A stretch of 64,000 bases of DNA from Telluria aromaticivorans (GTDB lineage: Bacteria; Pseudomonadota; Gammaproteobacteria; Burkholderiales; Burkholderiaceae_D). The DNA is taken from assembly GCF_013003915.1 (NCBI RefSeq), contig NZ_JABAIV010000003.1, positions 186,001 to 250,000 on the forward strand. Direction: 5' to 3'. Positions 51,876 through 56,885 of this stretch are shown piece after piece. The translations under genes were made by a program, and so were the position numbers. Below the pieces are notes generated by a model. It did no database searches, had not been told where the DNA came from, and worked only from the letters and a program-made list of their open reading frames with translations. Within the stretch, counting starts at the first letter, position 1; every line of letters starts with the position of its first letter.

Positions 51876-53849
51876 ATGTCGAATTTTAGCTTCGATCTTT
51901 TCAGCCAGTTGTGCACCAGGATGGTGTCAATGAGCCGCACAAGCAAGATTGCCCTGATGGTCACGACCGACCTGCTGGCATTGCCGGTGTGTTTTCTGAT
52001 CGCCATGATATTGCGCGGGGGAGATTTAAAACTCGCAATGAATTACGGGCCAGCGTCTTATGTACTCGTCGCCGTGGTGACAATAGCGGCATTTTCCATA
52101 TCCGATCTTTATCGCGCGGTCATCCGCTTTATCGACCAGCGTTTATTGAGCATGACCGGTGCGGCATTAGCATTCGCCATATTATGCGTTTATGTTGTAT
52201 TAATCGTGATGAACGAACCGCGTTTTCCTCGTAGCGCACTCGCTATTTACTGGTTTGTGGTTTTTTCGTATGTGGTCATGTCGCGCATCGGCTTGCGCAA
52301 CCTGCTGCGGGCCCGCAGCGGGCGCACCACCAGCAAATCCGATGCAGTGGCCGTCTACGGTGCCGGCGAGGCTGGCGCCCGCCTGGTGCAGGCGATGCGC
52401 CATAGCGACGAATACCGCCCGGTCTGCTTTTTCGACGACAAGCGCGCCCTGAATGAACGCACCATCGCCGGCCTGCGGGTATTTAATACCACCCGCCTCG
52501 CTGAACTGGTAGCTGCCCAGGGCATCCGTACCATCGTCATCGCCCTGCCGTCGGTTCCCGCGGAGCGGTTGCGCGACATCATGCAGCGCCTTGGCCAGGC
52601 CGGCATTCCCACCAAGATCCTGAGCCGCGTGGTCGACCTGGCCGACGACCGCCCACCGGCGCGCGGCACCATCCGCGAACTCAAGTTCGAAGACCTGCTG
52701 GGCCGGCCGGCAGTGCCGCCGCGGCTCGACCTGTTCGCCCGCTGCGTGCGTGGCAAGAGCGTGCTCGTGACCGGTGCCGGCGGCTCGATCGGCAGCGAAC
52801 TGTGCCGCCAGATCGTCACGCTCACCCCGAGCGAACTGCACCTGCTCGACCACTCCGAGTATGCGCTGTACACCGTGCGCCAGGAGCTCACCACGCGCTT
52901 CCCTGCCCTGACCATCCACGCCCACCTGGGCTCGGTCTGCAACAGCGACCTGGTCGAACGGGTCCTGCGTGAAGGCAAGGTCAACACCATCTACCATGCG
53001 GCGGCCTACAAGCACGTGCCGCTGGTAGAGAAGAATATCGTCGAAGGATTGCGCAACAACGTAGTCGGCGCCCAGGTGGTGGCCAGTGCCGCCGCCAAGC
53101 AGCAGGTCGAAACCTGCGTCCTGATTTCCAGCGACAAGGCGGTGCGGCCCACCAATATCATGGGCGCCAGCAAGCGCATCGCAGAACTGATCTTCCAGGC
53201 CGCAGCCGTGCGCCACGGCGCCCACACCACCTTCTGCATGGTCCGCTTCGGCAACGTGCTCGGTTCGTCCGGCTCGGTGATCCCGCTGTTCCAGCGCCAG
53301 ATCGCCCGCGGCGGCCCGCTGACCATCACCCATCCCGAAGTGTCGCGCTACTTCATGCTCATCGCCGAAGCGGCGCAGCTGGTGATCCAGGCCGGCGCCA
53401 TGGCCAAGGGCGGCGACGTGTTCGTGCTCGACATGGGTGAACCGGTCAAGATCGTCGACCTGGCGCGCACCATGATCGCCATGTCGGGCCTGACCGAGCG
53501 CACGCCGCAGAACCCGCGCGGCGACATCGAGGTCCAGTTCGTCGGACTGTTCCCGGGCGAGAAGCTGCACGAAGAACTGCTCACCGACGGCACGGTCTTC
53601 CCCAGCGAGCACCCGCGCATCATGCGAATGAAGGAGAGCGCACTGCGCCCGAGCGTGCTCGAGACCTGCATCACCTGCCTGATGATGGCCTGCGAAACCC
53701 ACGAGCGCGGCACGATCGAATCGATGGTCAAGGCCATCGTCGCCGAATACGTGCCGACCTCGCCCGACCTGGCGCCACCCCTGGTGGCCGACATGGCCGA
53801 CACCCCGCGACCGAGCCTGATCAAGAAGTTCGTACCGTTCCGAATTTAA
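51876..53849 (+). CDS. Membrane-bound nucleotide-sugar 4,6-dehydratase (CapD/WbpM/PglF type)
   Basis: A 657-residue protein: four N-terminal membrane helices, a first Rossmann domain (VAVYGAGEAGARLVQAM), then the catalytic SDR domain with GAGGSIGSELCRQ near residue 298, YHAAAYKHVPLVE, and SSDKAVRPTNIMGASKR near 416, where Met-x3-Lys replaces the usual Tyr-x3-Lys, as in the WbpM/FlaA1 family. It converts UDP-GlcNAc to a 4-keto-6-deoxy sugar for capsule, O-antigen or exopolysaccharide. It should head an exopolysaccharide operon, but the next gene is cut after 30 codons. The first 130 codons are far more AT-rich than the rest. Confidence 0.93.
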   Translation: MSNFSFDLFSQLCTRMVSMSRTSKIALMVTTDLLALPVCFLIAMILRGGDLKLAMNYGPASYVLVAVVTIAAFSISDLYRAVIRFIDQRLLSMTGAALAFAILCVYVVLIVMNEPRFPRSALAIYWFVVFSYVVMSRIGLRNLLRARSGRTTSKSDAVAVYGAGEAGARLVQAMRHSDEYRPVCFFDDKRALNERTIAGLRVFNTTRLAELVAAQGIRTIVIALPSVPAERLRDIMQRLGQAGIPTKILSRVVDLADDRPPARGTIRELKFEDLLGRPAVPPRLDLFARCVRGKSVLVTGAGGSIGSELCRQIVTLTPSELHLLDHSEYALYTVRQELTTRFPALTIHAHLGSVCNSDLVERVLREGKVNTIYHAAAYKHVPLVEKNIVEGLRNNVVGAQVVASAAAKQQVETCVLISSDKAVRPTNIMGASKRIAELIFQAAAVRHGAHTTFCMVRFGNVLGSSGSVIPLFQRQIARGGPLTITHPEVSRYFMLIAEAAQLVIQAGAMAKGGDVFVLDMGEPVKIVDLARTMIAMSGLTERTPQNPRGDIEVQFVGLFPGEKLHEELLTDGTVFPSEHPRIMRMKESALRPSVLETCITCLMMACETHERGTIESMVKAIVAEYVPTSPDLAPPLVADMADTPRPSLIKKFVPFRI

Positions 53850-53908: not shown

Positions 53909-54001
53909 ATGCGCGACGAGAACACCTCCCCTCAACTGGAGCAGCTGCTGGCCAAGCTGCAGGACCGCACCGCCGTCATCGGCATCGTCGGCCTCGGCTA
54001 A
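53909..54001 (+). pseudogene. Nucleotide-sugar dehydrogenase, first 30 codons only
   Basis: After GACGAGGA and an ATG the frame reads MRDENTSPQLEQLLAKLQD, then RTAVIGIVGLG and a TAA. RTAVIGIVGLGYVGLPL is the NAD-binding start of UDP-GlcNAc/UDP-ManNAc dehydrogenases (WbpA/WecC). The similarity stops inside the Tyr codon of GLGY. The next bases belong to the 3' part of the oppositely oriented export gene. About 400 residues are missing, so no enzyme can be made. Confidence 0.8.
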
Positions 54002-54915
54002 ACCTGGCGCGCGTCGCCGCTCAGGGGACTGATGCCGCCGGTCTCGCCAAGCGCCTCGTTGAGCGTCAGGCGGCCGTTGTGCATGGTGAGCGCTTTCGGG
54101 GTGATCACCTCGCCCGAGACGAATACCTTGCTTTCGTCACGCGAATGGACGCGGACCACGTCGCCATGCCCCAGCAGGATGGTGCCGGGGTTCACGCCCT
54201 TCTGCACCAGTTCGCGCAGGTTGACGGTGTAGCGCCGCTCTCCACGCTCGAGGACGATGCGGCTCTGGTCGGCGCTGGGCAACATACCGCCGGCCCGGTT
54301 GAGCGCTTCCACGAGTGTCATGGGAATGTCGTCGATCGCCTGCAGTCCGGGCGTGCGCACCTCGCCGTCGACGTAGACGCGCCTGCTGCGGTAGGACTGG
54401 ACGCGCAAGGTGACATTCGGTTGAGCAAGGTAGCGCGCCAGCTTTTTGGCCAGCAGTTCGCGCGCCTGCTCTTCGGTCAGGCCTTCCATGGTGAGCAGGC
54501 CGATGAGTGGGAACTGGATGCGTCCAAGGTGGTCCACCGCGAAGCCGGGCGTCGCCACATTTGGGGGCGCCGCGCTGCCGGTGGCCAGCGCGGCGGCTGT
54601 ATTCATGCCGCCCGAAGCCAGTTCGGGGTGGTCCCAGACCACGATTGACAGGATGTCGCCACGGCCGATCGTATACGGTGGCGGCTTCGCCACGAACAGG
54701 GGCGTAAGATCCTGGCGTGCGCTGCCGGCAGTGGCAGCGCGCTCGGCAGCGATCAGCCTGTCGGTAATGAGCTCGGTAGGCGGCGCGGCGCTGCCGTCCG
54801 CGCTGTCCGCTCCCACTGGGGAGTCGAAGCCGATACCGGTGGCGCATCCGGCCAGCGCCAGTACCAGCGCAGCCATGCAGCAAGCTTTTATTGCACCCGA
54901 ACAAAACAAAGCCAT
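53998..54915 (-). CDS. Wza-type polysaccharide export lipoprotein, C-terminally truncated
   Basis: A 305-residue outer-membrane polysaccharide export protein. It has a signal peptide with lipobox (LVLALAGC), the Poly_export domain (YTIGRGDILSIVVWDHPEL, VDHLGRIQFPLIGLL, YLAQPNVTLRVQSYRSRRVYV) and two SLBB domains (GEVRTPGLQAIDDIPMTLVEAL; GEVITPKALTMHNGRLTLNEAL). It ends abruptly at GGISPLSGDARQV, exactly where family members continue with YVIR and another 60-80 residues including the outer-membrane helix. The stop comes from the junction with the dehydrogenase fragment. Without its C-terminal helix it is unlikely to form a working export channel. Confidence 0.85.
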   Translation of the reverse strand: MALFCSGAIKACCMAALVLALAGCATGIGFDSPVGADSADGSAAPPTELITDRLIAAERAATAGSARQDLTPLFVAKPPPYTIGRGDILSIVVWDHPELASGGMNTAAALATGSAAPPNVATPGFAVDHLGRIQFPLIGLLTMEGLTEEQARELLAKKLARYLAQPNVTLRVQSYRSRRVYVDGEVRTPGLQAIDDIPMTLVEALNRAGGMLPSADQSRIVLERGERRYTVNLRELVQKGVNPGTILLGHGDVVRVHSRDESKVFVSGEVITPKALTMHNGRLTLNEALGETGGISPLSGDARQV

Positions 54916-55043: not shown

Positions 55044-56885
55044 TCAGCGCAGCTCTTCCATGAGCTTCAGGCCGTCGGCAAAGGCCCAGACCCGGCGGAT
55101 TTCGATCACGTCGAAGCGTGCGGCGACGTTCGGGGGAAAGGCCGAGTAGCGGGCATTCAGGCGCACGAAGCGGCGCACCGCGTCGTCCATATCGGGCCGG
55201 CCGCTCGAGCGCACGATGGTGACCTCGTCGATGCTGCCGTCGCTGCGCAGCGACAGGCTGACCAGCGGATCGATGCGCACCTCGCGCGACGCGAAGCGTG
55301 CGCCGCCCAGCACCGCATTGCGCTCGAGCTTCTGGCGCACGCTGTCGACATACAGGCGCAGCGGCGCGTCCCGCTCGGCGCCGCCGGCGACCACGCGGCG
55401 CGGATCCGCTTGCTGGTGGACCCGGGCCGGTGGCTCGACGCTGGGGATCGTGACTCCGCGCAGCAGTTCTCGCGCGCGGCTGCCGACGCCGCCAGCCAGC
55501 GCGCCGGCCGCGGGACGCCGAGGGCCTGCCCCGGTGCCGGGACCGGCGCCCGGGCCGGCGCCCTGACCGATAGCCGGGCCCGGCCCGCCCTGCCCATCCG
55601 GTCCGGGCAGCGCCGCGTCGGAGCGTGCAGGCGCTACGGCAGCCTGGCGCGCCGCTTCACGGGCGCGCTGCTGGGCAAGACGCTCCGCCTCGGCACGCTC
55701 ATCCGCGTCGCGGCGCGCGCGCTCTTCGGCCAGGCGGCGCCGGGCAAGTTCTTCGAGCCGCTCGCGCTCTCCCTGCTCTTGCGCCAGCCGCAGGGCTTCC
55801 TCGCGCTCGCGCTGTGCGAGCTGTTCGGCGATCCGCCGCTGGAATTCCTCCAGGTGCTGGCGCTCGAGCAACTGGGCTTCTCGCGCAGCGGTTTCCTCCA
55901 CCCGGCGCTGTTCCGCGTGGCGCGCGAGCGCCTCCTGTTCCCGCCGGCGCTGTGCCGCCGCCTCGTTGGTTGAGAGCTGGCGCTCGTTTTCTGCCCGCAG
56001 CCGGGCAGGTTCTTGCTCGACACGCGCCTGTTGGGCGAGCTGTTGCTCACCCTGCTGCGCAGCCAGCCGCTCCCTTGCCAGCAGCTCCTCAGTGGCTCGC
56101 TTCTCGAGTTGCTGCCGGGCTTGCTGCTCGGCCTGTTGCTGTGTCAGGCGCTCCTGCGCGCGCCGCGCTTCGGCCGCGCCTTGCTCCGCTGCGAGGCGCT
56201 CGCGTTCCCGCGCCAAGCGTAGTTCCGCTGCCTCGGCGGCCAGTCGCGATGCTTCGGCCTGCAAGCGATCAGCTTCCCGGATCAACGCAGCCGGGGCCGA
56301 ATTTTGCGGCTCCTGTGCCTGCTCCTCCTCGTGCAGGCTGGCTTCGGCCTCGGGTTCCGTGGCGGCATCCGCGAGCAGCCGCTCCAGCGGCGGGTCGACC
56401 TCGGGAAGCGGCACGGTGAATGCGGAGTCGGGACGCGCCTCGGCCGCGATCACCGGGGTCGTCACCGATGGCATGCGCCGCTTCGGGGTGGCCGGGCGGC
56501 TGCGCTTGGGAGGCTTGGACCTGGCCGGCTTGCTCGCTGCCGCCAATGCAGCAGCGGGCTCTGGAGCAATGGGATCGACCAGCCGAAGGCCGCCGGCCGT
56601 TGGGGCCGCAATGGGAGGTGCAGCCGGAGGCGCGACAGGCGCAGGCACAGGCGGCAATGGTGCCTGCCCAACCGGGGGCACGGGCAGCGGTTCAGCAGCA
56701 GGCGGCAGCGGCGGCGCCAGGACCACTGATAGAGGACCGCCGCTCCCGGTATCGATCCCGGGCATGCCGAACTGCAGCGACAGCAGCAAGGCGTGCAGCA
56801 GCACCGACACGGCCACCCCGGCCCCGAGGCGCCGATCCGTATGGCCGCGCGGCGGTTGTCGACTGCTTGCGTTGGCTGGAGCCAT
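55044..56885 (-). CDS. TonB/TolA-like energy-transducer protein with long coiled coil
   Basis: A 613-residue protein: short cytoplasmic N-terminus, one membrane helix (LGAGVAVSVLLHALLLSLQFG), a Pro-rich periplasmic stretch (PLPPAAEPLPVPPVGQ), then about 230 residues of Glu/Arg/Ala/Gln-rich coiled coil (residues about 195-430). The end is a TonB-type C-terminal domain (LYVDSVRQKLERNAVLGGARF, SLSLRSDGSIDEVTIVRSSGRPDMDDAVRRFV). The layout is that of TolA and of large TonB homologues. No exbB, exbD, tolQ or tolR is nearby. It lies 128 bp upstream of the truncated wza gene in the same direction. Confidence 0.85.
   Translation of the reverse strand: MAPANASSRQPPRGHTDRRLGAGVAVSVLLHALLLSLQFGMPGIDTGSGGPLSVVLAPPLPPAAEPLPVPPVGQAPLPPVPAPVAPPAAPPIAAPTAGGLRLVDPIAPEPAAALAAASKPARSKPPKRSRPATPKRRMPSVTTPVIAAEARPDSAFTVPLPEVDPPLERLLADAATEPEAEASLHEEEQAQEPQNSAPAALIREADRLQAEASRLAAEAAELRLARERERLAAEQGAAEARRAQERLTQQQAEQQARQQLEKRATEELLARERLAAQQGEQQLAQQARVEQEPARLRAENERQLSTNEAAAQRRREQEALARHAEQRRVEETAAREAQLLERQHLEEFQRRIAEQLAQREREEALRLAQEQGERERLEELARRRLAEERARRDADERAEAERLAQQRAREAARQAAVAPARSDAALPGPDGQGGPGPAIGQGAGPGAGPGTGAGPRRPAAGALAGGVGSRARELLRGVTIPSVEPPARVHQQADPRRVVAGGAERDAPLRLYVDSVRQKLERNAVLGGARFASREVRIDPLVSLSLRSDGSIDEVTIVRSSGRPDMDDAVRRFVRLNARYSAFPPNVAARFDVIEIRRVWAFADGLKLMEELR

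Follow-up and report, generated by a model that had tools for sequence, protein, structure and literature searches.

Recurrent deletion of an exopolysaccharide cluster from a single ugd base in Massilia genomes

The truncated locus and its intact counterpart

The window—the whole stretch of 64,000 nucleotides analyzed here—corresponds to bases 186001–250000 of contig C18 (748,145 bases) of genome G000 (5.23 Mb). All that is left of an exopolysaccharide locus in this window is an epimerase gene and two 5′ stubs. The epimerase gene (51876–53849, plus strand) is intact and encodes an NDP-sugar epimerase/dehydratase (Polysacc_synt_2, Pfam PF02719, E 4e-116), presumably a PglF/WbpM-like enzyme, which lies beside ugd in the window as well as in relatives. 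The ugd stub follows at 53909–54001 on the plus strand. This open reading frame retains the beginning of a UDP-sugar dehydrogenase gene, 30 codons in all; it translates to MRDENTSPQLEQLLAKLQDRTAVIGIVGLG, ending in GLG, with TAA as the next codon. On the minus strand, the wza stub (54915–53998) encodes 305 residues of a polysaccharide export lipoprotein, identified from its reading frame and from the Pfam domains Poly_export (PF02563, E 8e-23) and SLBB (PF22461, E 4e-32), and ends in GDARQV followed by TAG. Downstream of the locus lies a gene for a TonB-domain protein (55044–56885, minus strand; Pfam).

The two stop codons overlap at 53998–54001, and the bases they have in common are TA (53999–54000). 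This dinucleotide, which belongs to neither strand in particular, is the deletion joint: it is shared by codon 31 of ugd (TAY, plus strand) and codon 307 of wza (TAY, minus strand). With ugd facing wza or wzc, this TA opens a tyrosine codon on both strands. A sequence-only reading had already described this overlap, which is confirmed here, and had placed both cuts at tyrosine codons, in ugd inside that of the family motif GLGY and in wza directly before an expected one. Relatives bear out this placement: among the fetched relatives with a long ugd–wza gap, GLGY is found in 45 of 45 and GDAR[QA][VI]Y in 45 of 46, G017 being the one mismatch to the motif.

In Massilia relatives, the gene order is epimerase (plus strand), ugd (plus strand), more polysaccharide genes, wzc (minus strand), and wza (minus strand), with polysaccharide genes filling the interval between ugd and wzc. 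Intact sister strains include Massilia sp. UMI-21 and M. alkalitolerans, and the locus of the latter (L018, genome G003) encodes proteins of 442 (Ugd), 375 (Wza), and 758 residues (Wzc). We take the cluster, with its Wza, Wzc, and UDP-sugar dehydrogenase, to be of the Wzx/Wzy type, which it resembles in the content of the ugd–wzc interval of relatives. The distance between ugd and wza is bimodal across the 62 genomes of the genus: it amounts to 14.7–26.0 kb, with both genes on one contig, in 39 genomes, versus 0–879 bp in nine. The other 14 could not be scored, as the genes lay on different contigs or one match was missing (eight genomes) or as no ugd match stood beside the epimerase gene (six genomes). 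As far as the sequences were fetched, ugd and wzc are open frames in 45 of 45 long-gap genomes each. The M. litorea genome (G037), whose chromosomal cluster is deleted, bears a complete exopolysaccharide cluster on a plasmid (L067 on G037 C2, and L340), annotated as such. There, the order is wza–wzc–epimerase–ugd on one strand, with matches to the cluster in two regions of the 158.7 kb plasmid.

The window join is a deletion. It took away ugd from codon 31 onward and wza at its 3′ end, along with wzc as a whole and the exopolysaccharide cluster. The sequence-only reading had proposed that a single recombination fused two facing genes by their 5′ parts, through a deletion, an inversion, or a chimeric assembly, and had suggested searching the genome for the missing 3′ parts. 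A search with the intact proteins in 10 genomes found the missing 3′ halves of ugd and wzc neither in the window genome nor in the other short-gap chromosomes; only distant relatives of both genes remain in these deleted chromosomes. With the missing parts not found elsewhere in the assembly, the single recombination stands as a deletion and not as an inversion. The closest relative of the window by gyrB (G063, 93.5%) carries 22.6 kb at this locus, and, hence, the loss in the window may amount to about 22.6 kb with all of wzc included.

Functionally, the ugd stub of 30 codons lacks the NAD-binding, the central, and the UDP-binding domain, which in an intact relative correspond to PF03721, PF00984, and PF03720 of the UDPG_MGDP_dh family (Pfam). 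The wza stub, stopping before Tyr307, lacks the C-terminal segment of full-length Wza—about the last 70 residues, judged by the 375-residue homologue of L018. In the solved structure of Wza, the C-terminal part forms the outer-membrane pore. The earlier expectation that export and one sugar precursor step are lost thus holds for the end of Wza and for the dehydrogenase, but understated the extent, as wzc and a cluster of 15–26 kb (by the size in relatives) are gone as well. With wzc, the cluster, and the greater part of the dehydrogenase missing and Wza left without its C-terminal part, the window strain would hardly make or export this polymer. Distant wzc-like genes elsewhere in its genome suggest that other polysaccharide systems remain.

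One ugd base in nine genomes

In all nine short-gap genomes of the 62 screened, ugd is cut at the identical base, directly after GGC TA of codon 31 (GLG|TAY). The right end varies among three positions. It lies at Tyr307 of wza in the window genome and in M. niastensis (G016), at Tyr48 of wzc in six genomes—G013 (M. agri), G005 (Massilia sp. KIM), G065 (YIM B02769), G041, G037 (M. litorea), and G055—and at Tyr218 of wzc in G050. Codon 48 of wzc encodes Phe in G050 and hence offers no TA; the cut is found at Tyr218 instead. M. niastensis shares the ugd–wza join of the window exactly at about 80% DNA identity. TA is kept at all nine joins, with a microhomology of TAC in four of them. The wza or wzc stub always stops at the join (TAG), whereas the ugd stub stops immediately in five genomes and reads through for a short stretch in G013, G065, G041, and G037. 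Genes of exactly the lengths seen in the window do exist in relatives. Intact ones would have refuted the sequence-only reading, but these owe their ends to a deletion like that of the window. The choice of TA dinucleotides is wide: a ugd gene holds 19–26 of them (seven genomes counted) and the wza–wzc stretch about 47. Were the events independent, hitting the same one of some 20 ugd TA dinucleotides nine times would have a probability near 1 in 10^10.

The assembly of the window genome consists of 24 contigs, and the join is judged from this assembly; a chimeric assembly or a faulty database copy could produce such a structure. Yet, the join sits within a contig of 748 kb, the same ugd cut occurs in single contigs of 5.2–5.8 Mb (G041, G055, G037, and G050), and stubs occur among NCBI-sourced proteins. 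The same joins recur in three public named assemblies, those of M. agri, M. niastensis, and Massilia sp. YIM B02769, which alone among 80 loci have a ugd stub beside wza. An artefact, which had been one of the options raised from the sequence, is hence scarcely credible. An invertible or excisable switch, able to revert to the intact state, was another such option. The two sites are inverted with respect to each other and share a palindromic core, which makes an inversion conceivable, and the other state is present in sister species. On the other side, the missing parts were not found in the window genome or the other short chromosomes by the protein search, the plasmid cluster of M. litorea being a separate one in another gene order, and patterns for the wzc48-type inverted product and for the wzc48-type circle junction, allowing up to two mismatches, matched in none of the 62 genus genomes each. 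With neither a reciprocal junction nor the other orientation found for the wzc48 type, we consider a switch very improbable and drop the inversion.

To look beyond the genus, a pattern of ugd codon 31 turned into a stop was applied to 392 genomes drawn from the family; it hit four, each within the genus and already counted. This pattern detects only joins with A or G as the next base. Viral contigs gave no match to the join pattern, and one weak match to a phage is located in the epimerase gene. Among plasmid records, 402 match part of a 2 kb query, none of them over 80% of the query. The match examined among them is the cluster of M. litorea itself (37% of the query at 73.6%); one further record falls in the 80–90% identity band.

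Truncated proteins of the same kind are found in protein databases, where they are known as proteins alone, so that a point mutation from a tyrosine codon to a stop would look identical. An alignment search with the Wzc stub returned 32 proteins at E≤10; 27 of them share its last residue (ending in NTL, or ATL, NIL, NTF), and five end elsewhere. The Massilia-named ones among the 27 stem from KIM (G005, already counted), M. haematophila, and AB1; the others are mostly from the sources ena, jgi, and lgn and presumably of metagenome origin. For Wza, 116 of the 120 relatives listed (the best 120 of 2756) have at least 353 residues, and the four shorter ones among these 120 all end in GDARQV: the window protein, that of M. 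niastensis (P0050), P0011, and P0018. A search with the 217-residue Wzc stub of G050 returned 41 proteins at E≤1e-20; six end before Tyr218, four before Tyr132, and 31 elsewhere, some of the latter probably cut by contig ends or frameshifts. Five of the database stubs ending at Tyr218 cover codon 48; hereby, P0153 and P0160 bear no tyrosine there, and P0154, P0155, and P0157 do. In the stubs P0154 and P0155, the last four residues ahead of Tyr218 are VGLG, which also precede the ugd cut of the window. P0151, a protein of 45 residues, fuses the N terminus of Wzc to residues 15–30 of Ugd, again ending in GLG, and is either an inverted assembly chimera or a further rearrangement. Five further Wzc proteins (P0149, P0150, P0185, P0187, and P0191) carry apparent frameshifts, which suggests that the pathway is lost by other routes, too.

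Independent events or traveling alleles

The nine identical ugd cuts are telling to the extent that they arose in independent events. The case for independence rests on the gyrB tree and on sequence similarity near the join, with contrary signs in the latter. From a gyrB tree of 58 genomes, six without the arrangement were pruned to give 52 tips. The nine short genomes are scattered among intact species on this tree, and their nine occurrences require nine state changes, while shuffled labels give a mean of 8.5 (range 6–9). The 92-nt ugd stub finds its nearest match in an intact genome in nine of nine cases. Considering the last 140 nt on the right side, the nearest match is intact for seven genomes; the exceptions are G016, tied with the short G013, and G055, for which the short G037 scores best. 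Within the 72 nt adjacent to the join, an intact genome is the nearest match for G013, G065, G041, G037, G000, and G016; G005 shows a tie, and for G055 it is again the short G037. The ugd stub of the window (53909–54000) is 98.9% identical to that of the intact genome G007, which is not among its closest gyrB relatives; this likeness hints at a past exchange of the flank.

The codons near the join point in both directions. The codon touching it is TTG in G065 and in the intact G018, a choice found in 2 of 45 intact genomes. Codon 46 of wzc is ACG in G041, G037, and G055, versus ACC in the intact relatives shown, with ACG occurring in 18 of 45 intact genomes. In five of six cases, silent changes predominate where a Wzc stub differs from the nearest intact genome, with silent/replacement counts of 15/0 for G013 (against G045), 13/3 for G065, 5/1 for G041, 13.5/8.5 for G005, and 17.7/9.3 for G055. 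The exception is G037 with 9.5/13.5, which becomes 18/5 if the next genome is taken instead. Counts for the short ugd stubs are small and mixed. Because the differences in the Wzc stubs are mostly silent, most of the deletions look young, or else the stubs are constrained for another cause. Taken together, we infer from these comparisons that the deletions are probably recent and arose separately, in as many as nine events among the genomes sampled.

In the competing account, each junction type goes back to a single old deletion allele that passed between species when their conserved flanks recombined homologously; the flanks were later homogenized with the local intact alleles. This would explain the identical ends without any special enzyme, and three observations speak for it: near the join, the six alleles of the wzc48 type lie slightly closer together than sets of six intact genomes drawn at random (fraction 0.041), the nearest neighbor of G055 there is the short G037, and ACG at codon 46 unites three short genomes. 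The tie of G016 with G013 and the excess of replacements in G037 likewise count against independent, recent deletions. But even a few old alleles would need at least three origins (wzc48, wza307, and wzc218), all at the same ugd base. Moreover, the ugd stubs are closest to intact genomes throughout, G065 has its rare join codon in common with an intact genome, the stubs differ mostly in the manner of living genes, and breakpoints of similarity among intact genomes are not piled up at ugd codon 31. We therefore disfavor the spread of old alleles and regard it as rather improbable.

Breaks at TA and their possible cause

The best reading of the recurrent deletions, at a rough probability of 0.47, is a site-specific process that breaks and joins DNA at a TA core. 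In its favor count the one left base in nine of nine genomes and the few right ends used (wzc48 six times, wza307 twice, wzc218 once) despite about 47 TA dinucleotides on that side. In such a process, the two promoter-proximal ends would carry the same self-complementary two-base TA end, as might be left by a serine-recombinase-type or a guided cut, and would then be joined; the 3′ parts would be lost after cutting, and selection for exopolysaccharide loss would keep the products. The process would share the two-base core exchange and the exact joins with excision by serine recombinases. Unlike there, no recognized recombinase, conserved arms, or (for the wzc48 type) reciprocal circle is found here, and the sites lie in conserved codons of ordinary genes.

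The search for a recognition sequence gave little. No motif beyond TA is shared across the used sites: four positions are common to all, with 2.4 expected (sd 1.4), and with the right sites flipped three, with 1.4 expected (sd 1.2). Synonymous variation at ugd codon 31 is not reduced, and the used right sites resemble the ugd site weakly, except for wzc218. A conserved sequence flanking the core is thus not seen, and recognition may be loose or guided. Inversions would be expected, too, from a recombinase acting at a palindromic TA core; that neither these nor a circle junction were found for the wzc48 type in 62 genomes counts against such an enzyme. By eye, no recombinase-like reading frame was apparent in the intact cluster of G003 or beside the window locus. 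Genes with PF00239 occur in 14 of 15 genomes searched. A small serine recombinase of the window genome was considered as the cause and rejected, being absent from seven of the nine short genomes at E≤1e-30. Cassette exchange at TA sites was likewise rejected, as changepoints of similarity among intact genomes are not piled up at ugd position 92. In wzc, 66 of 417 changepoints fall at positions 100–149, near the Tyr48 site; we put this down to the end of the variable N terminus and see no support for exchange in it.

These findings leave room for an ordinary illegitimate deletion at a structural hotspot, where local DNA structure would provoke recurrent breaks or slippage, microhomology of two to three bases would guide the joining, and selection against slime would do the rest without a dedicated enzyme. 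The TA or TAC microhomology at the nine joins fits this account, as do the missing motif and recombinase, and the frameshifted Wzc proteins suggest that the loss itself is favored. What it explains poorly is the precision: a microhomology of two bases is ubiquitous in ugd and in the wza–wzc stretch, yet one left base is used in nine of nine and one right site in six of nine genomes. We judge a hotspot of this kind to be less likely than the site-specific process. The site-specific process can be extended to the genus—tentatively, and with less confidence than the process itself. Massilia would then carry a hitherto unrecognized activity, resembling a recombinase or guided by a nucleic acid, that breaks and joins DNA at a TA core. 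It would cut out the whole exopolysaccharide cluster again and again, from a fixed ugd base to a few TA codons of wzc or wza, and the genus would possess a genus-wide one-way "slime-off," for example against slime-binding phages.

Loci for surface polysaccharides are known to suffer large spontaneous deletions under phage or laboratory selection, for example in the galU region of Pseudomonas aeruginosa. The Massilia deletions resemble these in the loss by one step, in the short microhomology at the join, and in being probably selected. They differ in the left end, which is the same base in nine species, whereas the known deletions of the galU type have scattered ends. Polysaccharide phase variation by site-specific recombination is known from the promoter inversions of Bacteroides capsules and from IS492 in the eps locus of Pseudoalteromonas. 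Here, the likeness is a recurrent, site-fixed rearrangement that turns slime off; in contrast to phase variation, neither an invertase nor repeat sites nor a reversal is seen, and the deletion removes the pathway. Literature on this deletion was not found at the level of titles and abstract openings.

The loss of surface polysaccharides as such is common. That nine scattered lineages share one base as the end of this loss, without repeats at the ends, departs from the predictions of models of illegitimate recombination. Either a previously unknown site-specific activity acts on ordinary coding sequence, or hotspots of deletion can be much more sharply defined than assumed so far, or the movement of null alleles between species exceeds what the flanks reveal.
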